Shown here in pieces: positions 8,067 through 40,291 of a stretch of DNA of 64,000 bases. A program made the translations under genes and the position numbers. Below the pieces are notes generated by a model that searched no databases, was not told the origin of the DNA, and was given only the letters and a program-made list of their open reading frames with translations. The DNA comes from Orbus hercynius. Lineage in GTDB: Bacteria > Pseudomonadota > Gammaproteobacteria > Enterobacterales > Orbaceae. The stretch spans positions 62,001 through 126,000 of the forward strand of contig NZ_RBWY01000004.1 in assembly GCF_003634275.1 (NCBI RefSeq), given 5' to 3'. Within the stretch, counting starts at the first letter, position 1. Each line of letters opens with the position of its first letter.

Positions 8067-8075
8067 ATTATTTTA

Positions 8076-13037: not shown

Positions 13038-13059
13038 GTAACCTAAAGATATTATATTT

Positions 13060-13889: not shown

Positions 13890-13896
13890 AAAACAC

Positions 13897-13924: not shown

Positions 13925-13953
13925 ACACCTCGCTTTTTAGCAATCACTTCAAA

Positions 13954-25220: not shown

Positions 25221-25251
25221 AATATTCAATTGGTGCGTGGGCGGGATCTGA
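25221..25251 (-). repeat. Left attachment site (degenerate copy of the tRNA-Leu 3' end)
   Basis: Over 25221-25246 it matches 40260-40286 except one C/G change and one missing C within the acceptor-stem part (GGTGC-GTGGGCGGGA against GGTGCCGTGGGCGGGA). The match fades after that (ATCTGA against ACTTGA). Confidence 0.75.
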
Positions 25252-25307
25252 TTTATATAACAAAAAGCATTGAAAAATATAAATCCATATTTTTATATTT
25301 ATAAATT

Positions 25308-25328
25308 GTATAACTAAACGTATAACTA
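25308..25328 (+). promoter_or_regulatory. Integrase arm-type repeats, left
   Basis: Two direct copies of GTATAACTA at 25308-25316 and 25320-25328, a 12-bp period, about 60-80 bp inside the left att site. The same pair with the same 12-bp period occurs beside the right att site. This is the arrangement expected for arm-type sites of a tyrosine integrase. Confidence 0.6.
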
Positions 25329-25574
25329 TAGCAAAAAGTGACTCCTTTAATTGTTCATAATTTATACTGTTCTAATTTTCACTGTTTAGTGGTATTTAAT
25401 AATCGACGATTGCCTAAAATTTTACTTAACGCGAAATTGGAAATTATTATCACCTCACCAAAGAGGAATTATTTTATTTTGGTAAGCAGTAATTATTTTT
25501 ACTGATCATTAAAAATTGGTATGAATCTTGCTTGGGAGAATTTTTTATACCCCCCCTAAAAAGTTTTTGAAAAA

Positions 25575-25689
25575 GTATCCCCTTACTCCCCTTAATTTGC
25601 GCAACACTTTTATTATCAACACATACGAGAGTTTTAAGTGTCCCCTTGTGTCCCCCTTGTATCCCCTTAATTTCTGAAAGTATCCCCTT
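25575..25689 (-). repeat. Left iteron cluster (candidate origin half)
   Basis: Copies of GTATCCCCTT (minus-strand AAGGGGATAC), all in one orientation: 25575-25584, 25585-25593 (degenerate), 25638-25647 (GTG variant), 25648-25658 (one extra C), 25659-25668 and 25680-25689. They stand out as C-runs in very AT-rich non-coding DNA (25252-25690), which contains nothing else I can name. The unit is the same as in the right cluster. Confidence 0.7.
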
Positions 25690-25699
25690 GATTTGATTA

Positions 25700-25900
25700 T
25701 TAATTAAACAATTTAATGATTTTAGCTAGTGATTGATTATCTTGATGATGCGCTTTATCGGTTTTACCGTTGCCAAACCCTGATGCTTTGGCGGCGATAT
25801 CACGCGTATTACCTTTAACCTCTGGAAAATTTTCCACAATTGAATCCGTTTTAAATGTATTGATTGCTGATTTTAGGTTTATTGATGACCTTAAAGATAA
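25700..25900 (-). pseudogene. Possible remnant of a phage replication/partition-type HTH protein
   Basis: The minus strand encodes VKGNTRDIAAKASGFGNGKT, which resembles the DNA-binding segment of phage and plasmid ParB-like or replication regulators (pattern TRD-x-A-x-x-x-G-x-G-x-x-T). The frame loses the expected continuation soon after and has no start or ribosome site of its own. The tail-operon terminator lies upstream of it. Called a remnant on a weak motif match. Confidence 0.25.
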
Positions 25901-25901
25901 T

Positions 25902-25925
25902 AAAAAAGCCCCGTTAAGGGCTTTT
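25902..25925 (-). terminator. Intrinsic terminator of the tail operon
   Basis: On the minus strand AAAAGCCC-TTAACG-GGGCTTTT continues into a T-run. It overlaps the stop codon of the hub-protein gene, so the minus-strand operon that starts upstream of the primase can end here. Confidence 0.8.
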
Positions 25926-26768
25926 GTTAAATACTTTATACAGGAGTAAATTACTTTCATATAACCCACCGATTAGATTACATGATAAATTATGCTCAAT
26001 ACCTCCTATTATATAATCACCGGTTGCTAGTGGTAAATCAGTAATTAATTTTACAGGCTTACCGACTTTATAAGACGAGTTAAAGTAAGTCTTAGCCGTT
26101 AAATGGGTGCGTAAATACATAGGATAACCAATTAACCCCGTTTCTGGTGCGATCGTTATCACTGGCTCACTGGGAATATAATCGCTACTGTGTAGGGTTA
26201 TCGTGTCATAGTCAAAAATAACAAGACAACCTACATTATTAACAATTTCCATTATTTGATTGTATGGGCTACCAACTATATAAGGGTTACTTAATGAGGA
26301 TGTCACGCCATTATTGACGAGTGTCATACCAAAGGGCTTTATAATAGCCTCTATTGCTTCACTTGCTTTTACCTCGCCATTGAATGAAAAGGGCTTAGCG
26401 ACCTCTATCATTAAAAACGCACTAGCATAGCAATCAATACTTACAGATATATCGGGGGCTTGGTTGAAGTCTGCCACGCAATTAGCAATAACGCCCTGAT
26501 AAACTGTTATGCCGTTAGCTTTAACCTCTAATAAGTTTAACTTGTCACCAGTTCGCCATATCCCCATATTAGTTATTATTGCGATTGTATCGCGACTTAG
26601 CCCCCATATTCTAAATGACCCTTTACCGCTATTCGTGCCATTGACAGAGGTTATTTGTGCGGTACTTCTAGGTGATAAATAGGTCACTTTTCTGCTGCCG
26701 TCACTAAATGATTGGCTATCATTCGCTAAGGTGATCGTAAAGTCTAATTGTTGGTTCTGATAATCCAT
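25914..26768 (-). CDS. Phage baseplate hub-like protein
   Basis: A 284-residue protein with no signal or membrane span, rich in beta-strand pattern. NGTNSGKGSFRIWGLSRDTI and the middle part KPFGMTLVNNG resemble hub proteins of contractile-tailed phages (gpD/XkdQ-like), which sit at the end of the tail tube. The gene position directly after the tape measure supports this. The length is near that of the shorter members of that group. The last codon overlaps a strong terminator. The assignment is by pattern and gene order, not by a decisive motif. Confidence 0.6.
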   Translation of the reverse strand: MDYQNQQLDFTITLANDSQSFSDGSRKVTYLSPRSTAQITSVNGTNSGKGSFRIWGLSRDTIAIITNMGIWRTGDKLNLLEVKANGITVYQGVIANCVADFNQAPDISVSIDCYASAFLMIEVAKPFSFNGEVKASEAIEAIIKPFGMTLVNNGVTSSLSNPYIVGSPYNQIMEIVNNVGCLVIFDYDTITLHSSDYIPSEPVITIAPETGLIGYPMYLRTHLTAKTYFNSSYKVGKPVKLITDLPLATGDYIIGGIEHNLSCNLIGGLYESNLLLYKVFNKSP

Positions 26769-26779
26769 TATTAATACCT

Positions 26780-28345
26780 CTATGAAATATTGCTAAGGTG
26801 AGGAAATACGCCCGATGCGTTTATTTTGTTAAATGATGATCTTTGCATATCGACGCTTGATTTTAAGCTCTCAATATCAGCCATTAACGCGCTAAAGGTT
26901 GATGCGTCACTATTGACTACAATCTCGTAATTATTTACTACCGCATTACTATTATTGGCCACGCTATTGATCGAACTCTGTAAAGGGTTAGGCGCTGATA
27001 ATTCGTTATAATTTGAAAATTTATTGTTATCTACGCCTATCAATCCACTTGTTTTATTCTTTAATCCTGTATCGCTATCAGTTTTTAATAGTGAATTTAG
27101 ATGATCAAAGATGTAAGGGGAATATTTTAACCAATCAATAATCCCACCATTAAAACTACCCTCATTATTTTTGAACTTGATAACGCCGTTTTCTCGGTCG
27201 ATAGATTCGATATTATCGTCTAGTCGTTTTAATATTTCGCCTTTCTGTCCCTCCGCTTTGCCTTGTTTTTTCTCTATATTATTTAAATACTCTAACGCCT
27301 CTTTCTTTTGGGTAGTATAAAGCCCATCCTTACCAAAGAGAGTATCAACGCCTTTACTAACACCCGTCACTAATACGTTAACGAGGTCTAACGCATCTTC
27401 AACCATCGGGGCAAGGGTTGCGCTATTGGTTGCCAAATTAGTATAGATTTTATTAAGTTTAACGCTGGCGCCTGTCCATTTCTCCCCTACGATATTGATT
27501 GCGTTATCTAACTCCTTTTCGCTCTTTTCAAGTTCAACCTTACTTTTTCGGCTACGCTCGACTTGCGCCAGTGTGCTAATAGCCTGTTTTTCGCCTGTGT
27601 TTAAATTAGAATTAAAGTTTTTATCTGATAGGGCGGAGTATTGAGCACCATCTAACCCCATTCTATCAGCGACCTGTAACCGTCTATTATCATCTTTAAT
27701 ACTAGTTAAAACCGCTGATATCTCCCTAAGCGTTTTTATTGGGCTTGTATCTAAATAATCGACTTGTTTATTACTGCCTGAAAAAGCATTTAGATTGGTG
27801 ATCATGCTTAAAATATCGGGGTCAATGTTGCCGTTAGCTTTATAGCCTGATTGATTAAGGCTTAATTTATTGATTAATCCGTCAAGTGTTCCCGCGTTTT
27901 GGTTGCCTAATTTCAACGCTTGATGAACTGCTTCGATATCTTTCGCGCTTGCCGTGCCAGTTCTCGCCTGGTTAGCCAGTGATGTAATATCATTAGCTGA
28001 TTTGTTGGCGCCATCTTTAATCCCCTTCATGCCAAAGGATAAGCCACTAATTGCCCCCATGATTTTAAATATCTTAGTGAGTTCATTAAAATTAGCTTTA
28101 TTTTCCTTTAATGCGTCTTTTTTTTGCTTAATATCTTTGTCGTTTATCTTCTTGGTTTTATCGGCGCGTATCTTTTCCGTTTTACCTATTTTTTTATCTA
28201 ATACACCAGCGTCTTTTAATACTTTGTTAATATTTTCAGATACGCCTTTTAATGCTAATTGCGATTCCTCAAGCGACTGTATAAACTTGTCCACTCCCTG
28301 CGCTTTTAGCTCTAGCTTCATTTCTTCGATTGTTCCACTGCTCAT
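26780..28345 (-). CDS. Phage tail tape measure-like protein (short)
   Basis: A 521-residue, largely helical and lysine-rich protein: a coiled-coil N-terminal part (about 30-80), a small glycine-rich hydrophobic patch (IFKIMGAISGLSFGMKGIKD, about 92-111), alpha-helical segments and a C-terminal asparagine-rich stretch. This shape and the position right after the chaperone pair fit a tape measure, which sets tail length. By the usual 0.15 nm per residue it would give a tail near 80 nm, short for a myovirus. The ATG has AAGGA 6 bp upstream. 11 bp separate it from the hub gene. Confidence 0.65.
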   Translation of the reverse strand: MSSGTIEEMKLELKAQGVDKFIQSLEESQLALKGVSENINKVLKDAGVLDKKIGKTEKIRADKTKKINDKDIKQKKDALKENKANFNELTKIFKIMGAISGLSFGMKGIKDGANKSANDITSLANQARTGTASAKDIEAVHQALKLGNQNAGTLDGLINKLSLNQSGYKANGNIDPDILSMITNLNAFSGSNKQVDYLDTSPIKTLREISAVLTSIKDDNRRLQVADRMGLDGAQYSALSDKNFNSNLNTGEKQAISTLAQVERSRKSKVELEKSEKELDNAINIVGEKWTGASVKLNKIYTNLATNSATLAPMVEDALDLVNVLVTGVSKGVDTLFGKDGLYTTQKKEALEYLNNIEKKQGKAEGQKGEILKRLDDNIESIDRENGVIKFKNNEGSFNGGIIDWLKYSPYIFDHLNSLLKTDSDTGLKNKTSGLIGVDNNKFSNYNELSAPNPLQSSINSVANNSNAVVNNYEIVVNSDASTFSALMADIESLKSSVDMQRSSFNKINASGVFPHLSNIS

Positions 28346-28370
28346 ACTTTATCCTTGTAAAAAGAGACGA

Positions 28371-28622
28371 TTAAATCGTCCCTATGTTTATCGAGTGTTT
28401 ACCGTCTTTTTTTCTGTTAATAACGCCTTGATTGTAGTTATCAACTTGTAACACTTCCGCCATAATGAATAAATCCGTTAATGAGTAATACTCTTGTAAC
28501 TCTTTTAATGTTGCCTTACCTGTTGAGATTAGCGCGCCACAGTATGCGCCAATATTCACATATCCCTTTAGCCTGTACTCGCTAGGGCGATAAGGCAAGT
28601 TTAACGGCTTTATTCTTCGGTA
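28371..28622 (-). CDS. Tail assembly chaperone, frameshift extension (gpGT-like part)
   Basis: The -1 frame after the slippery site at 28622-28628. Read through, the upstream protein ends ...MIVNF and continues YRRIKPLNLPYRPSEYRLKG to EYYSLTDLFIMAEVLQVDNYN. The YYSLTDLF...DNYN part looks like the T-domain of phage tail chaperones. This frame is open back past the end of the upstream gene, and its only independent start is a TTG at 28598 without a ribosome site, so I read it as made by frameshifting. The fused product would be about 197 residues. Confidence 0.65.
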   Translation of the reverse strand, partial: YRRIKPLNLPYRPSEYRLKGYVNIGAYCGALISTGKATLKELQEYYSLTDLFIMAEVLQVDNYNQGVINRKKDGKHSINIGTI

Positions 28623-28963
28623 AAATTTACTATCATGCTTAACGCCTCGCCACGTAAACGGATGACGGTACTAATATCCTCTATATCATCGCCCCTCTGG
28701 TCTATTTCTCTAGCGGTGCTTATGTCGTTAGGGTTTGGCACGTATTTAACTAAGTATAATAATGATTCCCATAGTTCGCGCCCCTCTGCGGTTGCCGTTT
28801 TCATCATTAATGATTGCGGTGTTACGTCCTCGCCACAAAGTGAAAATGCTTGATTAAACATTCTTTCACCAATAAACGCGTTTGGCTCTGTAACCAAAAA
28901 CACCTTACCTTTATCGCGTCCTGTTTCTGTATTAATTGTAATTAGCTTTGTTGCTCTGGCCAT
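28610..28963 (-). CDS. Tail assembly chaperone (gpG-like)
   Basis: A 117-residue protein starting MARATKLITINTETGRDKGK, with acidic helical C-terminal part. Its place between the primase and the tape measure, and the -1 slippery heptamer just before its stop, mark it as the short form of a lambda G/GT-type chaperone pair that coats the tape measure during tail assembly. The ribosome site AAAGGAGTT lies 5 bp before the ATG and is among the best in the element; the primase ends 20 bp upstream. Confidence 0.65.
   Translation of the reverse strand: MARATKLITINTETGRDKGKVFLVTEPNAFIGERMFNQAFSLCGEDVTPQSLMMKTATAEGRELWESLLYLVKYVPNPNDISTAREIDQRGDDIEDISTVIRLRGEALSMIVNFTEE
28622..28628 (-). promoter_or_regulatory. 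Programmed -1 ribosomal frameshift site (A AAT TTT)
   Basis: In the frame of the chaperone gene the bases are GTA AAT TTT ACC, giving the heptamer A-AAT-TTT, which fits X-XXY-YYZ. It lies three codons before the zero-frame stop, and the -1 frame is open on both sides of it. Confidence 0.65.
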
Positions 28964-28983
28964 TTTATAACTCCTTTGTTTTG

Positions 28984-31446
28984 TTAGTGGTTTTGCTTGC
29001 TGATCTCTACGTTAACGCGGTATAGCTCTTTTTCGTTTAGCCATTCCGTCGTCTCTGCCTCGCTGCTGTAGATAATATTCGTTTTTGCCGATCCGTTTAG
29101 CGTTCTTTCGCTGTACTCTTGACCCATTGATTTAATTATCTCTTTGAGTTGGTTTTTAAAATTAGGCACACTAATACGAGGCTGTCCCCCTATCATGGCG
29201 CGATAATAAGCATCATAGCCATGAAATAAAAACTTTTTAGGATCAAAGCGCATTATGTTATCGGTCTTTTGCCCTATCCCTAAACCGTCGGGCGTGTCTA
29301 TAATCTCAAGGTAACAATAAAAGTCATAAATAGGGCTATTACTTCGCTTGATTCCCTCTGCCTCGTCTGATTTTTTTAATAACTCTAATTGCTTGACGGT
29401 CTCCTCGTCATCGCTGAATGTTTCAAGGAGATAGTTAATAATAAAAGGCAGTTCTTTTTTTATCTTATCGAGTAGATGAGGATCGCGCTCACTTGCCGGT
29501 ATAACAGTATCAAAGACTAACCGAATATGTCGCCTATCTATTCCGCTATCGCTACCCCTGAAAATCATCGGGGAATTATTAACGGCTAATATAACCGCCA
29601 TCGGTTTAAATGAATGAGCTTGCTTATATTTCGGGTCAACGTCTATTTTGTCGCCTGATGATAGCTTTTTGAGTAAATCACCTTCGCCCTGATATTGGGA
29701 TTGATCGGATAAGATTAATAACGTCTTATCAATTAACGCGGTTCTTGTTGATGCTTTTCGCTCCAGTTCTTTAATATCGCAATCAGCCGTATTGACCTCA
29801 CCAACAAGCAATCGCGCGATTTCTGAAAACGTACTTTTCCCTGTTCCCCCTGCGCCTGTCACCTCAATAAAATAATGCCATTCATGCCGATTAGCTAAAA
29901 TAATATAGAGTATTGCCAGTGCGCCCATTAATTTATTGTTATCTTGGTTAGTCGCTTTTGATAGATAGTTATAAAATAGGGGCGCGCCACTTACTAAATT
30001 TTTAGTAACCGCACTTTTATGATAAGTAATGCCGTTGGTACTGGTGTTATAGTTTGCCTTACTGTGAGGCGTGAACGTCATATCATTAACGCAGTACGCG
30101 CCATTATCAAAGTAGATATAGCCCTGTTTCTGCTCTTTGATTAAGGGCGATTTTAATAATGCTAACCGCGTTACGCGTTCGACGTTATCAATACTATAAT
30201 CAATGTTGTTATCTTCATAGATTGATATTAGTTTATCGAGTAATTCAAATTCGGCTAAACGTCGCCAATACTTGCCCGTAAGATAATAGGCTTCTTTAAT
30301 ACTACGATTATAGGCAAGGTTCCCATTATATGAGCTGACCAGGATATCAGCGCGCTTATTTGCAGGAGTATTACTTTGTAATCGCTCATTACCTTTATTT
30401 ACCCTTTTATTGCTCTCTGGCTCTGATTTTAAGCCGATTTCTCGCATAGCTTGAGTAAATGCCTTGCTAGTTTCATCAATGCCATATTTAGCGCTATAGT
30501 CGTTCCAATCGCAATTATAGTGAGTATCGGGAATGGCTAAGTAACCGCCCACACATTCAAGGGCTTCAATGGCTTTATTTAACCCCGTGTTTACGTTGTT
30601 ACCCGCGTCGTTATCCGCGCCTATGACGATTTTAACGGTTGAGTTAGTCTCGCGTATAGCCTTAGCTACATGAATAAGATTGCCAGCATCTAACGCGATA
30701 ATAATCAATTTATCTTGGTTAAATTCTCGCAAGGTTAAACCTGTCGCCAATCCCTCGCAAATAATTACCTCTCTTGCGCTTTTCAGTTGTAAACCTATGT
30801 CCTCACGCGCGCGCGTTGTGATAGTAGAAAAATCTTCGTTAATGGGTTGGCCAAGCTTTGGACGGACCCCGTTAAGTGTGAGCAATTTTCCACACACCGC
30901 AATAAATGAGCCTTTTTTATTGGTACCTTTCATTAATTGCTTATTACCGTTAGGCTCGATGAACTGCGCGCCTGTGTATTCATTATGAATATTCAGAAGC
31001 GGGGCGATAATTTTCCCACCGTCTAGCAAGGGTAAGTTAAAAGTAATTCCTTTTCTGGTTAGGTATTCTGATTGCCCCATAACCGCTATTGATAGCAAAT
31101 ACTCAACCTTTTTACATACGGGATTATCTTGTATGTTATTAACTGCCGTCTTCTCGGTAGTTTTATTGTGATTTGAGCTCACATTTAAACACTCAGCGAC
31201 CTTATTAATAGCCTCTTTAGCGTTACAGTGATAAATGCGTTCAATGAGGTTAATACCGTCACCGCTTCCGCATTGATTGCAAATAAAATCACCTTTGCTA
31301 TTTCGGTCGTCATATCTGAAACGGTCGCGCCCACCACAAACAGGGCAAGGCTTATGCTTATTTTTGGGGAATACGTCAATATTCAGCGATTGATAAATAC
31401 TATCCCATTTACCTACCGCCTGATTAATTACGCTATCAATAATCAT
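28984..31446 (-). CDS. P4 alpha-like primase-helicase
   Basis: An 820-residue replication protein with three parts: an N-terminal zinc-binding primase domain (CPVCGG...CNQCGSGDG, about 33-65), a TOPRIM domain (VIICEGLATGLTLREF and VIGADNDAG, about 225-285) and a C-terminal SF3/D5-type helicase with Walker A GAGGTGKSTF (about 525) and LILSDQSQYQGEGDL. This is the layout of phage P4 alpha protein, which also binds origin iterons. The ATG at 31446 has GAGGG 8 bp upstream and overlaps the previous gene by 11 bp. A GTG at 31461 is the alternative. Confidence 0.92.
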   Translation of the reverse strand: MIIDSVINQAVGKWDSIYQSLNIDVFPKNKHKPCPVCGGRDRFRYDDRNSKGDFICNQCGSGDGINLIERIYHCNAKEAINKVAECLNVSSNHNKTTEKTAVNNIQDNPVCKKVEYLLSIAVMGQSEYLTRKGITFNLPLLDGGKIIAPLLNIHNEYTGAQFIEPNGNKQLMKGTNKKGSFIAVCGKLLTLNGVRPKLGQPINEDFSTITTRAREDIGLQLKSAREVIICEGLATGLTLREFNQDKLIIIALDAGNLIHVAKAIRETNSTVKIVIGADNDAGNNVNTGLNKAIEALECVGGYLAIPDTHYNCDWNDYSAKYGIDETSKAFTQAMREIGLKSEPESNKRVNKGNERLQSNTPANKRADILVSSYNGNLAYNRSIKEAYYLTGKYWRRLAEFELLDKLISIYEDNNIDYSIDNVERVTRLALLKSPLIKEQKQGYIYFDNGAYCVNDMTFTPHSKANYNTSTNGITYHKSAVTKNLVSGAPLFYNYLSKATNQDNNKLMGALAILYIILANRHEWHYFIEVTGAGGTGKSTFSEIARLLVGEVNTADCDIKELERKASTRTALIDKTLLILSDQSQYQGEGDLLKKLSSGDKIDVDPKYKQAHSFKPMAVILAVNNSPMIFRGSDSGIDRRHIRLVFDTVIPASERDPHLLDKIKKELPFIINYLLETFSDDEETVKQLELLKKSDEAEGIKRSNSPIYDFYCYLEIIDTPDGLGIGQKTDNIMRFDPKKFLFHGYDAYYRAMIGGQPRISVPNFKNQLKEIIKSMGQEYSERTLNGSAKTNIIYSSEAETTEWLNEKELYRVNVEISKQNH

Positions 31447-31804
31447 ACGGAACGCCCTCACTAATTAAATTATCAATAACCTTATTGAAATACTCCTCAA
31501 TATATTTAATACCTAATTCTGATAAAGTTACCGCGTAAAGATTAACGTTCTCGCCCGTGAAGTTGTCGCCTAGCAAAGCGCAATAGCAATCAATAATTAA
31601 TATCTCGGCTTGTTCTGGTTCTTCGTTGCTTCTTGCTTCTGGTTCTAGTTCATTAATTAAAAAACTGTATAATTCGGCATAGTTTAAAAATAATGATTTG
31701 TCTTTATTAATATAGGCTGTTGAGCCGTTTTTATGCACACAATAATTTAATATCGCGCGTGCGGTTCTTTCTCGTAATATTTCAATAATTTCTTGCTTAG
31801 TCAT
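31436..31804 (-). CDS. Hypothetical phage-type protein
   Basis: A 122-residue acidic cytosolic protein (MTKQEIIEILRERTARAIL...). No motif is recognised. It is tied into the replication operon: its start overlaps the previous stop by one base and its end overlaps the primase start. A role in replication control is possible from position only. Confidence 0.65.
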   Translation of the reverse strand: MTKQEIIEILRERTARAILNYCVHKNGSTAYINKDKSLFLNYAELYSFLINELEPEARSNEEPEQAEILIIDCYCALLGDNFTGENVNLYAVTLSELGIKYIEEYFNKVIDNLISEGVPYDY

Positions 31805-32010
31805 TAGTTCCCTCCTGTCTTATTTATCGCTATCTGATTCGCGCCATGTATAAGGTCGTCTAATTCCCAAACAATATTCTGTACTGTTTTATCGGTAATT
31901 TTGACAATGGCGCTAGGGTCTAAGGCAATAGATAGACATTCTAAAATTGCTTCCGCTTTTGATAGCTTTTCTATAATTTCGTCTTGTTGCTCTATAGTTA
32001 TTCTGGACAT
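31804..32010 (-). CDS. Small hypothetical protein, helical
   Basis: A 68-residue acidic, helical protein (MSRITIEQQDEIIEKLSKAE). Its pattern (KLSKAEAILECL..., then WELDDLIHGA) resembles that of the protein encoded just upstream (EARLMQAQSMIEVAL..., then WASSDLISLAL), suggesting they belong to one family of small phage proteins. Start and stop overlap both neighbours by one base. Confidence 0.6.
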   Translation of the reverse strand: MSRITIEQQDEIIEKLSKAEAILECLSIALDPSAIVKITDKTVQNIVWELDDLIHGANQIAINKTGGN

Positions 32011-32237
32011 TATTTTTTACCCCCACCCAAATCCATATTTCCTAATTCATCCAACGCTAGACTGATTAAATCAGATGACGCCCATAACAAATTTCCAGCT
32101 TGGTGGTGCTCGATAAAAGGTTCATCATAACCGGCGCATTTATAATTATGATTATTAAGAGCCACTTCTATCATAGATTGCGCTTGCATAAGTCTTGCTT
32201 CAATTTGATTTAGCAATTCATTGTTTTTACTACGCAT
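32010..32237 (-). CDS. Small hypothetical protein, helical
   Basis: A 75-residue protein (MRSKNNELLNQIEARLMQAQ), ending in GNMDLGGGKK. The ATG at 32237 is chosen because GGAGGG lies 9 bp upstream; an earlier in-frame start at 32270 would put the ribosome site inside the gene. It overlaps the end of the Icd-like gene by 8 bp. Function unknown. Confidence 0.6.
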   Translation of the reverse strand: MRSKNNELLNQIEARLMQAQSMIEVALNNHNYKCAGYDEPFIEHHQAGNLLWASSDLISLALDELGNMDLGGGKK

Positions 32238-32448
32238 GATGATACCCTCCCCAGTTGATAGAGTGCTCAAAGGTTGGAGTAAGTGGCTTTCTGGCGATAA
32301 ATATCAGTGATTGCTTGCCTAGATTCTGTCTGGCTTGTCGTTCTGTCGTCGCGATAGTTTGGACTACTTGGGCGGTTAAAGAGTTGTAGAATTTGTATAG
32401 TTTAGATTGTCTAGCGCGTAGGTGTGCGCTATCATAGCGATTAGCCAT
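32230..32448 (-). CDS. Icd/Ash-like small phage protein
   Basis: A 72-residue basic protein from ATG 32448, which has AGAGG 8 bp upstream. The C-terminal part VVQTIATTERQARQNLGKQS followed by LIFIARKPL matches the pattern of the Icd-like/Ash proteins of P4 and relatives (an alternating strand, then A-T-E-R-Q-A-R, then IFIAR). Some of these inhibit host cell division; others have no known role. It continues the same frame as a longer upstream open frame, from which it may be made as a shorter product. Confidence 0.55.
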   Translation of the reverse strand: MANRYDSAHLRARQSKLYKFYNSLTAQVVQTIATTERQARQNLGKQSLIFIARKPLTPTFEHSINWGGYHHA

Positions 32449-33330
32449 AATCATTACCTCTATTAATGGTTGGGTTAGATAGCCCCTTGTATGCCAGTAC
32501 ATAGGGTTATCGTTTAAATAAGGCTTTTTAATTAACCTGTCCGCACAATATATAATATAACGTCCGCACAAGTCAACGCTTTTTTTATTCTCTCTTATCG
32601 TGTACACTGTCCGCACTATTAACGGTAATGAGAATAATATAAAAATGGCTAACGAAACGAAAACAACAAGACGTAAAGATATACGCTTCCCCCATGAACT
32701 CATTGAACAAATAGACGAACAAGCAAAGAAAGAAAATACTAATTTCTCAGCTTGGGTTATTGCTACCTGTCGCGAAAAACTGAACAAACCACTTAAATAA
32801 TTCGCCTTTTCTAACGTGTCGGAAAATTCATCCCTAACGTGTCGAAAAATTAAATTGGTTCGCATTAAAAAGTTAATTTTAGGTGCGTACTTACTGCGTA
32901 CTTCACGATTAAGCATTAATAATCTATTAATAGGTTTCCATTTATAAAGTGCTTTTTCGGTGGATACCTGATTGGATACCAACAATAAAAAACTCTTTTT
33001 TATGGACGTGCAAAACCCAATATTAGACTTTACTACTTTGGTAAATGCTTTACTAATTTGGTAAAGGTTAAAGGCATCTTCATTATGAATACGGCTTAAA
33101 AGGCCTATTGCTTGCCAAAGATAAGATTTTCCTTTCTGGTAATCGTGGGTTACTTGTTCCCTGTCCCTAATCTTACCGTTATTAAGTGCGGTAACTGGTG
33201 CGGAGATAGCCAATGATAATACATTGGCGTTATTGGTCATCACTACGGTAAACAGTGTGGTAGCAGTATCATTACAAAAAGCGATCCTCATATTTGAGGA
33301 GCAGCACAACGAACTATTATCAATCATCAT
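32230..33330 (-). CDS. Long open frame coupled to the antirepressor gene, uncertain
   Basis: A 366-codon minus-strand frame whose ATG overlaps the antirepressor stop as TAATG. The first about 110 residues (NMRIAFCNDTATTLFTVVMT, then SYLWQAIGLLSRIHNEDAFN) look protein-like. The middle part, opposite the plus-strand ribbon-helix-helix gene at 32645-32800, reads like an antisense shadow (FFACSSICSMSSWGK). The last 72 residues are the Icd-like protein, which has its own ribosome site. It may be a real long gene of the Ash type, or a short coupled gene that has lost its stop. Confidence 0.35.
   Translation of the reverse strand: MMIDNSSLCCSSNMRIAFCNDTATTLFTVVMTNNANVLSLAISAPVTALNNGKIRDREQVTHDYQKGKSYLWQAIGLLSRIHNEDAFNLYQISKAFTKVVKSNIGFCTSIKKSFLLLVSNQVSTEKALYKWKPINRLLMLNREVRSKYAPKINFLMRTNLIFRHVRDEFSDTLEKANYLSGLFSFSRQVAITQAEKLVFSFFACSSICSMSSWGKRISLRLVVFVSLAIFILFSLPLIVRTVYTIRENKKSVDLCGRYIIYCADRLIKKPYLNDNPMYWHTRGYLTQPLIEVMIMANRYDSAHLRARQSKLYKFYNSLTAQVVQTIATTERQARQNLGKQSLIFIARKPLTPTFEHSINWGGYHHA
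32539..32616. promoter_or_regulatory. Operator region with three direct repeats
   Basis: GTCCGCAC occurs at 32539-32546, 32562-32569 and 32609-32616, spaced 23 and 47 bp, that is about one and two units of the same period. A TATAAT at 32551-32556 lies between the first two, and a palindrome GTGTACAC at 32600-32607 just before the third. It lies directly before the ribbon-helix-helix gene, so it may be that protein's own operator. Confidence 0.5.
32645..32800 (+). CDS. Ribbon-helix-helix protein, YlcI/YnfO-like (DUF3950)
   Basis: A 51-residue basic protein, MANETKTTRRKDIRFPHELI then NFSAWVIATCREKL. The RKDIRFP strand followed by two helices is the Arc/MetJ-like DNA-binding fold as found in small prophage YlcI/YnfO proteins. 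It is the only clear plus-strand gene in the element, opposed to the long minus-strand frame. The ATG at 32645 starts the conserved part; upstream in-frame codons give no homologous sequence. Repeats in front of it may be its binding sites. Confidence 0.75.
   Translation: MANETKTTRRKDIRFPHELIEQIDEQAKKENTNFSAWVIATCREKLNKPLK
32809..32849. repeat. CTAACGTGTC repeats (two of three copies)
   Basis: CTAACGTGTCGGAAAATT at 32811-32828 and CTAACGTGTCGAAAAATT at 32832-32849. The first copy extends to a 20-of-21 match with 37742-37762 inside the terminase-small pseudogene. They follow directly after the ribbon-helix-helix gene. Confidence 0.5.
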
Positions 33331-34082
33331 TACGCCGCCTGTGCCAGTTGTTGGGTCAAGTAACGATTTGATAACTCAATTAACTTAGCCTTTCTCTGCT
33401 CATAATTAAAACCAATCTCAATTAATGTAATATTGGTTTTTTCTAAGTAGGCAAGATGATTTAATGTTGCTTCGTTGAACTGATCGCGAATATTACCGCT
33501 TATGTTATTGGCTTTCTTGTAGTTACCTGATGACACACCCAATACAATACCGTTGATCATGTTAAACTCATTAGTATAGTGGTGTGGCTTGGTTTCTTTG
33601 CCTTGTGATAAGCGTTGTAATGTCAGTGCGTCACACATAGGACGACTATAATTAGCAACTTCAATACGAGCTTTTAATCGTTTAAGTTCTTTCTTCTGGA
33701 TAGATGGAGCAATTTGTTTTAACTGTGCCTCACATCTAATAAAGTATTTTCTTATAGCTCTTCCTTGTTCGTTATTCTCAATCATAGCTAATTCTTTAGC
33801 TGTGTTAATTGTGAGCACGTAATCAATACTCCTACGATCACCTCCTCGCTTAGTTTTACATTGTTCAATATTTGTACTTTGATTCACCAAAACGGGGGAA
33901 TCAAAAATTAAGTAATCTTCATTCTGATTCAAGGCGTATTCATCAATACGAGATTTAATCCATGTGGAAAAATCGCGTCCTACACTTAAAAATGAGTGTA
34001 ATTGTTTCGCGCTAACTGTTTGTTGTAACTTGCCGTTAATTGCTGTCTCTGTCACTGGTACTACATTATTAAAATTGTTCAT
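33330..34082 (-). CDS. AntA/AntB-family phage antirepressor
   Basis: A 250-residue protein. The N-terminal AntA/AntB domain is seen in VSAKQLHSFLSVGRDFSTWI and NEDYLIF...YVLTINTAKELAMIENN, followed by a region with KARIEVANYSRP and a C-terminal part on its own. Such proteins bind and neutralise phage repressors and help induction. The ribosome site AGGTGA lies 5 bp before the ATG. It probably responds to a helper or host cue, since no CI-like repressor is found in the element. Confidence 0.85.
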   Translation of the reverse strand: MNNFNNVVPVTETAINGKLQQTVSAKQLHSFLSVGRDFSTWIKSRIDEYALNQNEDYLIFDSPVLVNQSTNIEQCKTKRGGDRRSIDYVLTINTAKELAMIENNEQGRAIRKYFIRCEAQLKQIAPSIQKKELKRLKARIEVANYSRPMCDALTLQRLSQGKETKPHHYTNEFNMINGIVLGVSSGNYKKANNISGNIRDQFNEATLNHLAYLEKTNITLIEIGFNYEQRKAKLIELSNRYLTQQLAQAA

Positions 34083-34131
34083 ATTTCACCTATAATCTGT
34101 ATGTTTTCCCCTCATTTTATTAAATTTAGGC

Positions 34132-34141
34132 AAGGGGATAC
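34132..34141 (+). repeat. Single origin-type iteron in the antirepressor leader
   Basis: AAGGGGATAC, identical to the end clusters, about 50 bp upstream of the antirepressor ATG and followed by GTGAGCGCAATTTTGCAC. A related pairing of an iteron-like sequence with GAGCGCAAAATTGCGC is found at 38706-38750. Confidence 0.5.
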
Positions 34142-34180
34142 TGTGAGCGCAATTTTGCACTTTGCTTTTAAATCAATGAA

Positions 34181-34588
34181 TTAAGCTGCCTTTTTGGGGT
34201 AAAGCTCTAAGATATTGGCGATCTGATAATCTAGTAATAGCTTAGGATTATTTTTATTAATGAGATTTAATACCTTTTCGGCATCTTCTTTACTGGTAAG
34301 TGCGTATCTAAAATGCGCTCCTATGCCATCACAGTTACTGTCCTTGTACCTGTGAAGTGTGATTTTTAGCTCGCGCTCTAATTGACTTGCGTAATTTCTC
34401 CCACTGGAAAGGGAGCAGTTAAATAGGACATGATTTTCAGTTGTACCATAAGCGCCGCTACACGCAATTAATAAATAAGCGCGGTACTTTTTCGCTACAC
34501 TTTTTTGAGGGATTGGGCTATCATATGAAACGTAGTTATTCCAGTTATAGCCCTCGACTATTTGGCGATATAGAGGGTTGCTTTTCAT
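34181..34588 (-). CDS. Hypothetical protein
   Basis: A 135-residue basic protein (MKSNPLYRQIVEGYNWNNYV) with RAYLLIACSGAYGTTENHVL and a helical C-terminus; no signal peptide. It starts 2 bp after the alpA stop with GGGGG as a ribosome site, so it is translated with alpA. I do not recognise the family. Confidence 0.6.
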   Translation of the reverse strand: MKSNPLYRQIVEGYNWNNYVSYDSPIPQKSVAKKYRAYLLIACSGAYGTTENHVLFNCSLSSGRNYASQLERELKITLHRYKDSNCDGIGAHFRYALTSKEDAEKVLNLINKNNPKLLLDYQIANILELYPKKAA

Positions 34589-34590
34589 GC

Positions 34591-34800
34591 TTACCCCCTT
34601 GACGCTTTTTTTGATTCTAACCAGCTTTCAACTTCCGATCGGATAAAAAACACTTTACGGCCTGACGGTTTAAAGGGTCTAGGTGCTGTTTCGTCGCGCT
34701 TTAATAGGGTTCTTAATGATTCGGGGCTTTTATAGCCTAGTAAGTCTAATAGTTCTTTTTGTGGGATAATATCTAAATTTGAGTTCATTCCTGTATTCAT
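34591..34800 (-). CDS. AlpA-like helix-turn-helix regulator
   Basis: A 69-residue DNA-binding protein, IIPQKELLDLLGYKSPESLR then RPFKPSGRKVFFIRSEVESW. This is the MerR/excisionase-like winged helix of AlpA/Cox regulators, which in P4 and PICI elements control excision and early operons. The ATG at 34800 has AAAGGA 9 bp upstream. The 800 bp in front are non-coding and carry several promoter, operator and hairpin structures. Confidence 0.8.
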   Translation of the reverse strand: MNTGMNSNLDIIPQKELLDLLGYKSPESLRTLLKRDETAPRPFKPSGRKVFFIRSEVESWLESKKASRG

Positions 34801-34906
34801 TAATTTAAGTCCTTTAAAATTAAATAATTAAAGAAATTAAATAACAATGATAAAAACAGCAATGGTTAAAAATTAAGCTAATAAAAATTAATTTGTATAG
34901 TAATTC

Positions 34907-34935
34907 TTGACTTAATACATTACAGACCGTAATAA
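34907..34935 (+). promoter_or_regulatory. Plus-strand promoter with internal operator
   Basis: TTGACT (34907-34912), a 17-bp spacer and TAATAA (34930-34935). A perfect inverted repeat ATTAC-AGACC-GTAAT (34919-34933) occupies the spacer and part of the -10, the usual place for a repressor site. Confidence 0.6.
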
Positions 34936-34941
34936 TATAAC

Positions 34942-34982
34942 CAAAGTTATTATTTATCTCTTAAAGCCGAACGGCTTTTTTT
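34942..34982 (+). ncRNA. Candidate short RNA (about 40 bases)
   Basis: Defined only by the promoter at 34907-34935 and the terminator at 34963-34982; the transcript would be about 40 bases with no coding capacity. It is divergent from alpA. P4 also uses a short RNA for immunity, but no pairing partner has been identified here. Confidence 0.35.
34963..34982 (+). terminator. Intrinsic terminator
   Basis: AAAGCCG-AA-CGGCTTT followed by more T (seven T in all). It is oriented for the plus strand and lies about 28 bp after the promoter -10. Confidence 0.75.
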
Positions 34983-35004
34983 GCTATCTAATATCTTTTG
35001 CCTA

Positions 35005-35049
35005 GGTGGTTGATTTTCTTTCGTTGGGGAACGTACGAAATCAACCGCC
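35005..35049. repeat. Long hairpin in the alpA control region
   Basis: GGTGGTTGATTT and AAATCAACCGCC form a 12-position stem (one G-T or mismatch) around a 21-base interior. No T-run follows on either strand. It may be an RNA structure or a protein site. Confidence 0.55.
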
Positions 35050-35619
35050 ATAACCTACCAATTAAAAACCTCATTGATAGTAATCACCCTACCTGTGTAA
35101 ATAGACATTGCTGTATAAAAACACTGTATAAGCAAGGTAATAAGCATTCTATCAAATTATTATATGAAGATACAATACGAAATAATCACTATTTATCAAA
35201 TTTAAGGCGTAAAACAAGCGATTTAAGCCATTTTGTATTATTCCTGTATACCAAAGGGTAAGCACGAGGTTTAAATTGATTCTCGCGCTTCGGATCGATA
35301 ATTTAAAAAGTTAAATTTTATCTTATTGATTATTAATATTTTATTTTTAAGATTTTTGAATTTATGATCGGTTTATCGTGGATGCGGTAAAAATTTGCTG
35401 TTTTTAGGAATGTAAAAATTAAAAATCAAGAATTAAAAATTATTTTTACTTAAATAATCCGATTGCTTATTTTTTAGACTGTTTAGGTTTTAGTTACTAC
35501 TGTATGTAGTATTAATATGAGTAAAATCAAACAACATGTTGTATTGTTTATCTTAATTTAGGCATAAAAAAGCCACATAGTGGCGATTAATATTTTTAAT
35601 AACTCTATATAGCTAAAAT

Positions 35620-36189: not shown

Positions 36190-36349
36190 AACGCACCCGT
36201 TTAATTTATTTGTGTTTGTCTAGTATTATAATAGAAATAAATAATAATAATTAAAAGGATAAATTCAGTTGTGGTCATATCACCACGACTGCCAACAATA
36301 AGAGGACTTTTTGATAAATTTATTAAAAACCCTCTAATGAGCATCATAA

Positions 36350-36913
36350 TCACCGTTCTACCTTACCGCATATTTTATCAACATAAACGCGCGCATGATC
36401 CCAGTATATACTTTCCATATTAATGAGCTTATTTTGCTCCATAGCAAAGCGCTTACGGCTCATCCCTTTAGGTTTAGGGAAATAGTAGGCATGATTAAAA
36501 AGGTTGTGATATTCCCTGTTTTTGCCTTTAAACAATGTATATCTTGCTTTAACTATTTTACGCCTTAGCCTATCAAGTTGATTTTCACTTTGGCTAGCAT
36601 AATGTAGATTGAAACAATCACGGCAAGCAATATTCTTATTAGTGAAAAATAGGGTTGAACGTCTACTATGACAATGAGGGCATATAAACCAGTATCGCCA
36701 CCCATAAGATAAGGCTGTTTTATCTATGCGTCCTATTACTATTTTATCATTAGGTAGTTGATACGCGATATTGTCGCCTTTAACACCTACGGTTATCTTT
36801 TTGTTACCACTTGTAATATCATATTGTACATGGTTGATAATCAGTGTTTTAAGCTGTTTTACATTGATCCTAGGTAATTCACTCGTATAGTTTCGCGTGT
36901 TGGCTCTAACCAT
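36350..36913 (-). CDS. Zinc-ribbon protein of unknown function (accessory cassette)
   Basis: A 187-residue basic protein. The centre carries a zinc ribbon, WFICPHCHSRRSTLFF then NIACRDCFNLHYASQSENQL, with CX2C pairs 20 residues apart, followed by a strongly basic helix DRLRRKIVKARYTLFKGKNR. Similar uncharacterised proteins occur in phages and plasmids. Nucleic-acid binding is likely. The ATG at 36913 is preferred; an in-frame TTG at 36928 is the alternative. It is flanked by the secreted and the membrane protein genes. Confidence 0.6.
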   Translation of the reverse strand: MVRANTRNYTSELPRINVKQLKTLIINHVQYDITSGNKKITVGVKGDNIAYQLPNDKIVIGRIDKTALSYGWRYWFICPHCHSRRSTLFFTNKNIACRDCFNLHYASQSENQLDRLRRKIVKARYTLFKGKNREYHNLFNHAYYFPKPKGMSRKRFAMEQNKLINMESIYWDHARVYVDKICGKVER

Positions 36914-36959
36914 AATTATTTTTTCCAATACGAAATCATTTGATTATTTAATAAAGTAA

Positions 36960-37418
36960 TTATTTATTATTTAAACATTCTGTTGGATATCTATCACAAA
37001 AAAGTTTATTAAGTTTATATTCTTGTTTTTTAACTTGATTATAATCATCTATTGTTACTTTAGTAATGGGATTTATTGATACAGTAATAATAGTGCTCAT
37101 CAAAATAATAGAGCTAAAACTTAATAATTTATTTTTAACGTCCACCATATCGACTATTTTAATAAAAATACGCATACCACTACCAATAATAAAAACGTAA
37201 ATAATAAAATTAAAAACAAAACCTTCAGCATCCTGACCATAAAATAAAAATATTTTTATTAGATAAGGAACTATGACAGTTGAGGCACCAAAAACTAAAA
37301 TCCAATATAAGAAAAAATGAGCAACCAAAATCACCCAATTTTGATATTTTTTGTCCTTTTTTAATGCTCTCTTTTTTATTCTTAGTCTTAGGCTTTTTTT
37401 ATCCATTATTATTACCAT
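36960..37418 (-). CDS. Small membrane protein (accessory cassette)
   Basis: A 152-residue inner-membrane protein. A basic N-terminus (SLRLRIKKRALKKDKK) leads to about four hydrophobic spans (near 25-50, 60-85, 95-110, 115-130) and a C-terminal extracytoplasmic or cytosolic tail with CDRYPTEC, a cysteine pair. Family unknown. Two ATGs, 37418 and 37406, are possible and neither has a clear ribosome site. 46 bp separate it from the zinc-ribbon gene, so they may be one transcript. Confidence 0.55.
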   Translation of the reverse strand: MVIIMDKKSLRLRIKKRALKKDKKYQNWVILVAHFFLYWILVFGASTVIVPYLIKIFLFYGQDAEGFVFNFIIYVFIIGSGMRIFIKIVDMVDVKNKLLSFSSIILMSTIITVSINPITKVTIDDYNQVKKQEYKLNKLFCDRYPTECLNNK

Positions 37419-37540
37419 TTAATAATTTTATTATTTAACTATTTATAACCAGGATAATATCCTTTATGGTTTCCGTTCGTCAACGGTGACAGGGGGGTAA
37501 ATATCCCAACGTAAAATAACCATTATTTTTTTGTATGCGT

Positions 37541-37927
37541 CTATTGCTTGCTCAGCTGTGATGTCTCTTCAAATAGCGCGGATAGAGGTTTATTAAAATC
37601 TAACTTGACATTATTAGTCTGCTCTACTTGCTGTTTATCACTATAACAGTGATTAGATAACATCAATTTAGCTATGGTTGAGTTAAATTCACCTGTTAAG
37701 CCTTTATTTAGTAGCTCATTTTCTTGGATAGTTTTAATCGCTTCTAACGTGTCCGAAAATTCTACGGATTCATCAGCGTATTTATACAAAGTAGATCGTG
37801 CGCATTCAACATATAGGGATAATCAGCTAATCGAGGGTATTACTCCACCGTCATTTTTATAACCGCCTTTAAAGTATTCCTGCGCCTTTTTAAGTGTAGT
37901 ACCTAACTTACTTTTACGTCCTTTCAT
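37541..37927 (-). pseudogene. Terminase small subunit-like (TerS), one in-frame nonsense codon
   Basis: From ATG 37927 the minus strand reads MKGRKSKLGTTLKKAQEYFK, then GGVIPSIS, a TGA stop (37823-37825), then LSLYVECARSTLYKYADES and onward to EFNSTIAKLMLSNHCYSDKQ. The whole 129-codon frame fits a phage terminase small subunit with a helix-turn-helix broken by a single stop. Relatives have Gly at the stop position, and GGA to TGA is one base change. A fragment restarting at 37789 would lack the DNA-binding part. In PICI elements TerS redirects packaging of the helper. Confidence 0.6.
37742..37762. repeat. CTAACGTGTC repeat (third copy)
   Basis: TTCTAACGTGTCCGAAAATTC, 20 of 21 identical to 32809-32829. 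Here it lies inside the terminase-small frame (coding EFSDTLEA). Confidence 0.5.
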
Positions 37928-38024
37928 AGCTCTAGCTCTTTATTATCAACCGATGCACGTTTTAGTGCTTCGCTTATATTTTGTTCAATTATAATTTATG
38001 CTATCAATTTACCTCGTTCATTTT

Positions 38025-38043
38025 ACTACAATACTTTTGTAGT
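38025..38043. promoter_or_regulatory. Operator-like inverted repeat
   Basis: ACTACAA-TACTT-TTGTAGT, perfect 7-bp arms. A shorter relative, ACTAC-TGTAT-GTAGT, lies at 35496-35510; the pair may bind one regulator of the element. Confidence 0.45.
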
Positions 38044-38506
38044 ATAAATATTAAGCGTTGGCGGTTTTCCGCCTTCGGTGTAATAGTTTTCAACTGTGCT
38101 TATTTGCATAGTTTGGATATCAAGCTCATATTTAACTATAGTCGAACAGGCTTAAAAATAGATTATTAATTTTGACGGTGTGAAAATTGGGTTAGGCGAA
38201 CGGTGTCCAAGTGATTTAATCTAGACTTTTAACCCCCCCCTCTATAGCTAAAACAACATATTTGTGGTTATAGGGCCGGATTTGAAATCCGCACCTTTGA
38301 TTTTATTTAATTGCGACTGATAGTCGTGTTTAGTTAAACGCTGGATAAATATTTAACCGGTCTATTTTAATATTAACCATATGATTTTATTTAAATCTGT
38401 TACCAAACAAGGATTGATTTCAACCCTGTTAATTTAGGCTTACCAGTGAAAAGGTATTCATCTAATAAAACTTTACTGATTAATTATTTCTTAGCTAATA
38501 TCAATT

Positions 38507-38612
38507 AAGTGGGTACAAGTGGATACAAGGGGATAGTAATTATAAGTATCCCCTTAGGTCTAATCCTTATATATCAATACTTTTAAAGATTTAAGGGGAT
38601 ACAAGGGGATAC
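38507..38612 (+). repeat. Right iteron cluster (candidate origin half)
   Basis: AAGTGGGTAC, AAGTGGATAC and AAGGGGATAG in tandem (38507-38536), one inverted copy GTATCCCCTT (38546-38555), then two perfect AAGGGGATAC in tandem (38593-38612). The following CTTTTATAAAACTTTTAGGGGGTA mirrors the sequence before the left cluster, so the element ends carry a roughly 45-bp imperfect inverted repeat. Confidence 0.7.
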
Positions 38613-38829
38613 TTTTATAAAACTTTTAGGGGGTAGGCATAATACTAGCGTCCTCATTATTGAGTTGGCAAATAGATGCTTTCTTACTGGTAAGCCTGTT
38701 TGAGTTGAGGGGATATGTCCGCGACTGATATAACGAGCGCAAAATTGCGCCCATTGAGTTTATTGACTTGGTTAACCGTATGGCTATCAATATAGTTGGT
38801 ATGGTGATATGTTTACACCATTGTTTTAA

Positions 38830-40095
38830 TTAGCTATTAACCACCTTGAATGATTTATTGCCCGATATTGATACATTGCCGTTACCTGCTTGTTCTACAA
38901 AGTCACCCCACCAATCTAGCATGATTCTTTTTTGTTGTTCGTACTCTGCGCGGTTGTAGGCTCGCCTTACTGCGTTCTTATCAACATGTGATAATGCGCT
39001 CTCTATTACGTCATAATTAAAGCCCTGTTCATTTAAAGCGGTGCTTGCTAACGATCTCAATCCATGTGCAACTAATTTATCTTTGTAGCCCATTCGTTTT
39101 ATTGCCATATTAGCGGTTTGACTGCTCATCGATTTGTTATATGGAGGTCTAGCTGTAGGAAAAATAAAACCGCTTTTATCTTTCGTAAAGCTCATTATTG
39201 ATAATATGTTCATTGCTTGAGGTGATAACGGTATATTGTGAGGTCTATCCATTTTCATACGTTCGGCTGGTATCGTCCAAAGTTTATTATTAAGGTCTAT
39301 TTCTTCCCATTTCGCGACTGCTGCTTCATTGGGTCGGGTTAATGTTAATAATTGCCACTCTATAACGCATCTTGTTTGTAGTTCTATTCTTGCCAATGAT
39401 AAGGCTTTCATGAATTCGGGAAGCTCATTAGGTGAGATTGTAGGCTGATTCTTAACTTTAGGACTATTAAAAGCATCTGCGATCTTAGCTAATGGATTAT
39501 TATCAATGATGCCAAGATTAATAGCATAAAACATAATTTCATTTACTCGCCTACATACTCGCTTTACTGTCTCATGATTATTATTATCAGCTAACGGCTG
39601 TAATGCTTTTATTGCTTTGACTGCGGTAACTTCGGTTATAGGAATATCTTTTATATATGGGAAAAAATGATTTTCTAATGATCTCCATGCCTTTTTTAAT
39701 GTAATAGGCTCCAGCCCTTTATTTGTTTTGAAAACATGCCACTGCTCGGCGATAGCATAGAAAGAGTTATTTAGCTCAATTTGCTTTTTGATTTCTTGCT
39801 CTGCTTTGTATTCTTGGGGATCTATACCTTGCTTTATTAATTCCCTTGCTTCATCTCGCAATTTTCGCGCTTGCTGTAATGTTATTTCGGGATAACTTCC
39901 AAAACTAATTAATGATCGTACCTTAGTTACTGGACGATAATAATTAAACCGCCATATCTTCGAGCCGTTAGCCTTAACTAATAAATAAAGCCCGTTACCG
40001 TCGGACAGGGTAGCATCTATCGGCTTTCCGTCTTTAGTGCTTGGCTTTGCCGTTTTGATTTGGGTATCAGTTAAAGGGGTGGTTATACGCGCCAT
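38830..40095 (-). CDS. P4-type tyrosine integrase
   Basis: A 421-residue recombinase. The N-terminal DUF4102 arm-binding domain (DATLSDGNGLYLLVKANGSK and IWRFNYYRP, ISFGSYPEITL) is followed by a core-binding helical domain (about 100-200) and the catalytic domain with Arg in TLTRPNEAA, His-x-x-Arg in HGLRS, His in LSHVDKNAV and the nucleophilic Tyr in RRAYNRAEY. It lies with its start towards the tRNA-Leu, which is its target. The start codon overlaps one of the arm-type repeats, so integrase binding may repress its own gene. Confidence 0.95.
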   Translation of the reverse strand: MARITTPLTDTQIKTAKPSTKDGKPIDATLSDGNGLYLLVKANGSKIWRFNYYRPVTKVRSLISFGSYPEITLQQARKLRDEARELIKQGIDPQEYKAEQEIKKQIELNNSFYAIAEQWHVFKTNKGLEPITLKKAWRSLENHFFPYIKDIPITEVTAVKAIKALQPLADNNNHETVKRVCRRVNEIMFYAINLGIIDNNPLAKIADAFNSPKVKNQPTISPNELPEFMKALSLARIELQTRCVIEWQLLTLTRPNEAAVAKWEEIDLNNKLWTIPAERMKMDRPHNIPLSPQAMNILSIMSFTKDKSGFIFPTARPPYNKSMSSQTANMAIKRMGYKDKLVAHGLRSLASTALNEQGFNYDVIESALSHVDKNAVRRAYNRAEYEQQKRIMLDWWGDFVEQAGNGNVSISGNKSFKVVNS

Positions 40096-40146
40096 AGTTA
40101 TACGACTCTTAGTTATATGGTAAATGTATAACTAAATATATAACTA
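40095..40146. promoter_or_regulatory. Integrase arm-type repeats, right
   Basis: GTATAACTA at 40126-40134 and ATATAACTA at 40138-40146 (12-bp period, as on the left), plus inverted TAGTTATAC at 40095-40103 and TAGTTATAT at 40110-40118. The rest up to the tRNA (40147-40259) has short TTAATG repeats such as TTAATGGGTGTTAAT. Confidence 0.6.
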
Positions 40147-40259
40147 AAAATATTGGCTGTAAATGGGCATTAATGTAACTTAATGGGTGTTAATTGATTA
40201 ACAAAGCGCTGTAGTTACTGGGTTTTATGGGTATAAATGGGGGTTAATGAGTGTTAATA

Positions 40260-40291
40260 AATATTGAATTGGTGCCGTGGGCGGGACTTGA
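40260..40291 (-). repeat. Right attachment site within the tRNA-Leu 3' end
   Basis: AATATTGAATTGGTGCC, then GTGGGCGGGACTTGA. It covers the CCA end, the acceptor stem and part of the T-arm, so the element restores the functional tRNA on this side. Confidence 0.8.

Follow-up and report, generated by a model that had tools for sequence, protein, structure and literature searches.

A P4/PICI-type satellite with tail chaperone, tape measure and hub genes of its own, which may enter helper tails

Chimeric phage tails were demonstrated in March 2026 for the phage-inducible chromosomal island-like elements (PLEs) of Vibrio cholerae (PMC12987554, Nature 2026). The satellites PLE1, PLE4 and PLE11 encode a tail assembly chaperone (TAC), a tape measure protein (TMP) and BhuB for a contractile tail whose tube, sheath and baseplate are supplied by the helper, and PLE11 virions contain the satellite TMP and BhuB in place of those of phage ICP1 (PMC12987554). 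Deletion of tmp lowers PLE11 transduction by ~99.9%, and identity between PLE and helper proteins is 20% for TMP, 20% for TAC and 41% for BhuB, which corresponds to ICP1 gp78 (PMC12987554). According to that paper, no satellites before the PLEs were known to build chimeric tails, and tmp genes in other satellites suggested that the practice is more widespread (PMC12987554). Here we describe an integrated 15-kb element at positions 25221-40291 of a 64,000-nucleotide stretch of DNA (the window, G000:C4:62001-126000, from a 2.36-Mb genome in 13 contigs), whose host, a bacterium of the insect-gut type, appears to belong to the Orbaceae, a placement that fits the gene content. The element is bounded by the end of a tRNA-Leu(GAG) gene and an imperfect copy of its attachment (att) sequence, and it carries a TAC-TMP-hub set without tube, sheath or head genes, which is the gene content of the PLE type. 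By analogy with the PLEs, we consider it probable that this is a satellite of the P4 and phage-inducible chromosomal island (PICI) type that swaps its own TAC, TMP and hub into helper tails. An earlier annotation of this DNA made without database searches (the sequence-only reading) had regarded such a satellite as unusual; the V. cholerae PLEs are a precedent, and the window element is apparently an independent variant of a kind of satellite known since March 2026.

The closest homologues found for all three proteins belong to a complete prophage in the same genome, referred to here as the resident prophage, and a second species of the genus (G001) holds a related element. All main genes of the window element lie on the minus strand; the tail-initiation module consists of the following features (window positions).

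28610-28963, minus strand: TAC, first frame, 117 aa (phrog_1932, 6e-13; 46-50% identity to the prophage TAC)
28622-28628, minus strand: -1 slippery heptamer A AAT TTT, read in the zero frame and identical in G001
28371-28598, minus strand: TAC extension, the second TAC frame (phrog_3976, 1e-12), open back to the slippery site
26780-28345, minus strand: TMP, 521 aa (28-32% identity to the prophage TMP over the full length; 88% in G001)
25914-26768, minus strand: baseplate hub, 284 aa (phrog_196, 2e-38; PF22759, 2.5e-10; 53% identity to the prophage hub)
25904-25925, minus strand: intrinsic terminator closing the tail module (9-pair stem, then a T-rich tail)

The frameshifted tail chaperone, tape measure, hub protein and closing terminator named in the sequence-only reading are all borne out: both chaperone frames match their families, the heptamer is canonical and kept in G001, and the terminator was located at 25925-25904. 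The satellite TMP had no family match of its own in profile scans and was assigned by its position and by its full-length homology to the prophage TMP, which itself matches TMP families and has the same PHLSN C-terminal motif. The tail genes start 20 bp behind the primase gene of the element, and in a terminator scan the first minus-strand terminator is the one behind the hub gene, so the tail genes are probably co-transcribed with the primase. A search of solved structures returned one distant match for the hub (Phi92 gp137, 5e-6) and nothing useful for TAC. No match to the TMP was found in INPHARED phages, IMG/VR or GTDB genome contigs, and among 394 genomes of the order, a sample that excluded G001, the window genome alone was matched. 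The hub had no match in the GTDB contigs; its sole match in IMG/VR, which contains this same prophage, was the resident prophage itself (100% identical), and the best hub in the phage database is 32% identical to that of the satellite.

The likeness to the PLEs lies in the set of TAC, TMP and hub, in a contractile tail whose tube, sheath and baseplate would come from the helper, and in a TMP divergent from that of the helper, and the pattern of identity to the helper is similar in the two satellites. They differ in host and in chassis, the window satellite being built on an integrase, an AlpA-like regulator and a P4-alpha-type primase, and also in helper, the candidate here being a resident prophage whereas the PLE helper is a lytic phage. 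The satellite hub belongs to phrog_196, as does ICP1 ORF76, whereas ICP1 ORF78 belongs to phrog_1517/817. The hub family of the window satellite therefore differs from that of BhuB, in a comparison made via the ICP1 record that assumes gp numbers to equal ORF numbers, as is supported by TMP (79, 81) and TAC (82). These assignments suggest that the PLEs and satellites of the window type replace different proteins of the hub region and, because the hubs come from different families, that the window satellite is apparently a case independent of the PLEs. As a separate observation, ICP1 ORF78 (L090, 2449-3063) is annotated as an endolysin and has phrog_817 in common with a 213-aa protein adjoining the prophage hub gene.

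The element of G001 (C1, ~2092.6-2109.5 kb) lies in tRNA-Ala(GGC), beside secF and secD, and has the gene order of the window element; no head genes were found in it. The two elements are 70-84% identical in blocks and are thus conserved as a unit at different sites, and the G001 att copy has a GAATTGGTG core in common with the window element. Their accessory genes differ, as expected of a mobile element. The sequence-only reading had suggested looking for the same order at leuU: the order without head genes does recur in G001, but at tRNA-Ala, and at leuU itself the relative found (G003) is tail-less. Between the window element and G001, the ratio of nonsynonymous to synonymous substitution rates (dN/dS) is 0.03 for TAC, 0.07 for TMP and 0.09 for the hub, against 0.12 for the primase, 0.15 for the integrase, 0.17 for the antirepressor and 0.45 for the open reading frame (ORF) ORF366, with ORF135 also low at 0.07; dS is near saturation (~0.9-1.2 for TAC, TMP and hub), so these values are approximate, although the order of the ratios is still clear. 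Judged by these ratios, the tail genes are among the most constrained of the element and are under strong purifying selection, which, together with the headless relative of the same order, supports the satellite interpretation of the earlier reading. The G001 satellite also holds, by eye, metabolic-looking cargo, DapA-like and PhzF-like (L008 8295-9215, L009 562-1353).

The resident prophage (G000:C1, ~534-580 kb) is E217/GF-2-like and contractile tailed. It encodes an integrase, an excisionase-like gene, a repressor, replication genes and lysis genes, and among structural genes the small and large terminase subunits (TerS and TerL), portal, major head protein, sheath, tube, TAC, TMP, hub, baseplate wedges and a tail fibre. 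It is like the satellite in its TAC, TMP and hub and in a 123-bp element common to both, and differs from it as a complete phage with head, terminase, sheath, tube, wedge and lysis genes. On these sequence matches we regard it as a candidate helper, and its terminase and hub families are not those of a P2-type phage. A further cluster on the same contig (L072, G000:C1:104001-124000, at ~625-14759) encodes a repressor, an endolysin, a spanin-like protein, sheath, tube, TAC, TMP, hub, wedges and fibre and has no head genes. It resembles an R-type tailocin or a headless tail cluster, and the weak hub matches in other family genomes may belong to its relatives.

Around the tail module, the element comprises the following features.

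40270-40354, minus strand: tRNA-Leu(GAG), the attachment gene (ARAGORN and Rfam)
38830-40095, minus strand: tyrosine integrase (PF00589, 2.6e-27), adjoining tRNA-Leu(GAG)
37541-37927, minus strand: TerS, P22 gp3 type, with one in-frame stop at 37823-37825
36350-36928, minus strand: zinc-ribbon protein of the accessory region (weak IS1595-type zinc ribbon match; 65-67% in G001 and G003)
34943-35065, plus strand: 123-bp element, hairpin-forming (97.6% to G000:C1:550369-550490, L015)
34591-34800, minus strand: AlpA/excisionase-like regulator (HTH_17, 3e-4; phrog_66, 2e-5)
34181-34588, minus strand: ORF135, conserved chassis gene adjoining alpA (56-84% in related satellites)
33330-34082, minus strand: AntA-type antirepressor (PF08346, 1.7e-23)
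32230-33330, minus strand: ORF366, variable chassis gene (homologous stretches at the same position in most related satellites)
31804-32270, minus strand: ORF68 and ORF86, small conserved chassis genes (homologues in related satellites)
31436-31804, minus strand: ORF122, conserved satellite chassis gene (homologues upstream of the primase in G001 and G003)
28984-31461, minus strand: P4-alpha-type primase-helicase, 825 aa (phrog_2249, 6e-80, full length)
25221-25251, no strand: attR-like imperfect copy of the tRNA-Leu 3' end (AATATTcAATTGGTG-CGTGGGCGGGAtcTGA against the tRNA end)

The gene order is thus integrase, TerS, zinc-ribbon protein, AlpA-like regulator, ORF135, AntA, ORF366, small ORFs and primase, followed by TAC, TAC extension, TMP, hub and terminator. 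The far att copy aligns to the tRNA end with a local score of 23, the next best within the element being 12, and its one-base gap is also present in the att copy of G003. An element fills this tRNA-Leu site in G003 too; in G002 the site is empty, and rimP-nusA-infB follow the tRNA gene. The primase is 31% identical to P4 alpha over 98% of its length. The helix-turn-helix regulator matches Pfam AlpA weakly (E 0.04) and fits the PHROG excisionase/regulator family better, and the C-terminal part of the antirepressor is 37% identical to an antirepressor of the resident prophage. Profile scans gave no family match for ORF366. Intact TerS homologues are present in G001 and G003 (PF16677, 5e-25, in G003). 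The integrase at a tRNA end, the AlpA-like regulator, the antirepressor, the P4 alpha-like primase and the broken TerS gene proposed from the letters alone are therefore all present, and, as that reading also said, none of the ORFs scanned in the element proved to be a capsid, portal, TerL or lysis gene. An integrase with its own replication and regulation genes and no complete virion gene set is what a phage satellite would have, and int, an AlpA-like regulator, a P4/pri-type primase and TerS (interrupted here) make its chassis that of PICIs and capsid-forming PICIs (cf-PICIs); the cf-PICI set of its own capsid, portal, protease, adaptor and terminase was found in neither the window element nor G001.

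In the prophage, a putative regulator and the lysis genes flank the 123-bp element. Three satellites of the genus have it upstream of alpA, that of the window, that of G003 (L050, near 7528-7700) at 85% identity and, diverged, that of G001, with a promoter-like sequence directly upstream and a long hairpin within. No Rfam family came near threshold and no phage match was found. Consensus folding of four copies gave a weak covariation term (+0.81), with several pairs broken in G001, so that a conserved RNA structure is unsupported. A packaging site was considered because of the near identity with the prophage copy but lacks support, that copy being 4 kb from the prophage terS, next to the lysis genes. 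A small RNA and a control site that responds to the helper are both conceivable roles.

Primases of this type were present in 19 of the 45 near genomes tested, and the contents of the slot behind them were read in the primase neighborhoods fetched. In six elements the primase is intact and no structural gene follows it (G003, G016, G019, G021, G022 and G023). Four others are cf-PICI-like (G006, G007, G010 and G026; loci L051, L056, L058 and L060), with capsid or head, protease, portal, adaptor, HNH, TerS and TerL genes, the module families having been checked for G006. The primases of G011 and G020 are broken, without structural genes, G009 has a partial chassis, and the neighborhoods of G015 and G024 stop at a contig edge. 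Among the neighborhoods fetched, the tail set is confined to the window genome and G001; the tail-less satellite of G003 occupies the same tRNA-Leu as the window element, beside secG. Because relatives hold nothing structural, head genes or tail genes behind the primase, this slot takes different modules. We are somewhat inclined to see here one family chassis with a plug-in slot for nothing structural, a head and packaging module or a tail-initiation module, the last form being a new, "tail-forming" class of P4/PICI satellite that would be independent of the V. cholerae PLEs, would replace a different hub and would be matched to a temperate helper on the same chromosome. Two side observations concern other satellites of this kind. 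In the accessory region of the G003 satellite (L050, 4880-6967), the gene for a large protein containing a DNA/RNA non-specific endonuclease domain is followed by a small gene, an arrangement that looks like a toxin and its immunity partner. The Pasteurella phages Pmp7 (L002) and Pmp8 (L003), deposited as phage genomes of 10.7 and 15.3 kb, have an integrase, a P4-type primase and a terminase, to which Pmp8 adds a head module, and resemble cf-PICI-type satellites more than phages.

The window satellite is like the cf-PICIs in its integrase, regulators and P4-type primase and in a morphogenesis module in the slot behind that primase, and differs in that the module consists of tail initiator genes rather than head, portal and terminase genes. 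P4 shares the alpha-type primase-helicase along its full length (31%) and the integrase at a tRNA end. P4 itself is without tail genes, whereas the window satellite carries them. The P4 sid, psu, delta, capsid-size and late-control families had no match among the scanned ORFs of the element, a result that leaves some small ORFs unscanned and in which P4 alpha alone was compared directly. A TMP accompanies the head genes in some cf-PICIs (PMC12987554, Extended Data Fig. 10), and the prophage vB_KppS-Ant, cf-PICI-like in appearance, also carries one (phrog_2854, 2e-176). This 16.5-kb induced element (L004, LR881103) has head, portal and terminase genes, a full-length TMP at 2036-4333 beside TerL, and no further tail genes annotated.

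Chimeric tail assembly is likely because the TAC-TMP-hub set is the same in kind as that of the PLEs. Once a contractile-tailed helper became active, for instance the resident prophage, the satellite would use its own primase to replicate and would make its tail proteins from the same transcript. The satellite TAC would load the satellite TMP, the satellite hub would join the helper baseplate, and helper tube, sheath and baseplate wedges would polymerise around them to yield chimeric tails that carry the satellite. Packaging would probably be steered by the satellite TerS in intact relatives, the gene being interrupted in this copy. The gain to the satellite might be that its own particles are preferred, that a defence directed at TMP is evaded, or that its range of helpers widens. 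Tail length follows a rule of ~0.15 nm per TMP residue. The satellite TMP has 521 aa and that of the candidate helper 500 aa, a difference of 21 aa that predicts ~3 nm or less, below one tube ring, so that a changed tail length is not expected; the imposed length suggested in the sequence-only reading is thus unlikely, and an altered tail length was rejected as a role.

It is possible to read the element instead as a trimmed prophage, the remnant of a full phage after deletion of its head genes, which the earlier reading had offered as the simpler alternative. The interrupted TerS, the imperfect att copy and the descent of the tail genes from a phage lineage would fit such a remnant. We consider it very improbable, and already largely refuted by G001, because a second species has the same arrangement in a different tRNA gene and the tail genes show the strongest purifying selection. 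The chassis, moreover, is a widespread satellite type in the family, a gap of 20 bp separates the primase from the tail genes, and other late genes have left no relic. In none of the relatives do the tail genes run on into capsid genes, as a deletion origin had been said to predict; head modules in related satellites replace the tail genes and are not placed after them.

The module might also act in interference, with TAC, TMP and hub as decoys that poison the tails of the helper or of an infecting phage, in a role of defence. The slot behind pri in PICIs does hold accessory immune genes, including Tai tail-assembly inhibitors (PMC11364771), and a TMP strongly diverged from that of the helper beside a closer hub and TAC is what a dominant-negative part might look like. 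A poison, however, needs one part, whereas here all parts are full-length, the frameshift product included, at dN/dS below 0.1; tail-blocking systems such as Tai, Tab and Rta are dedicated proteins rather than complete initiator sets, and the PLE set of the same kind serves the satellite's own particles. We therefore hold interference to be unlikely. A reading in terms of helper choice differs from chimeric assembly in the benefit and not in the mechanism: the module would be an adaptor set for several contractile-tailed helpers, or an escape from TMP-targeting defence, the chimeric tail being the means and helper range the benefit. TMP is indeed the least conserved part relative to the resident prophage (~30%), Rta-type systems target TMP (PMC12987554), and the module is present in G001, where no resident prophage has this type of tail. 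As the main benefit, helper choice seems to us quite unlikely.

Several points weigh against the satellite and chimeric tail as we have described them. The function of the window satellite is inferred, whereas that of the PLEs has been demonstrated, and the tail-bearing copies known are two, in the window and in G001, compared at the near-saturated dS given above. The satellite TerS (P22 gp3 type) differs in family from that of the prophage, so that a phage other than this one may do the packaging, and a hub search of the genomes found in G001 no close prophage carrying this hub. Because of the TerS stop codon and the imperfect att copy, this copy may no longer move, and it may be defective even if the family of elements is not.

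The chimeric-tail satellite proposed here would be a clean second case of a TAC-TMP-hub set without head genes, present in two species, under purifying selection and on another chassis and with another hub family than the PLEs. Because the genome also holds a candidate helper prophage, the proposal can be tested with a temperate helper. The case bears on which tail parts must match, on why satellites replace the core of the tail, and on the exchange of head and tail modules among satellites.

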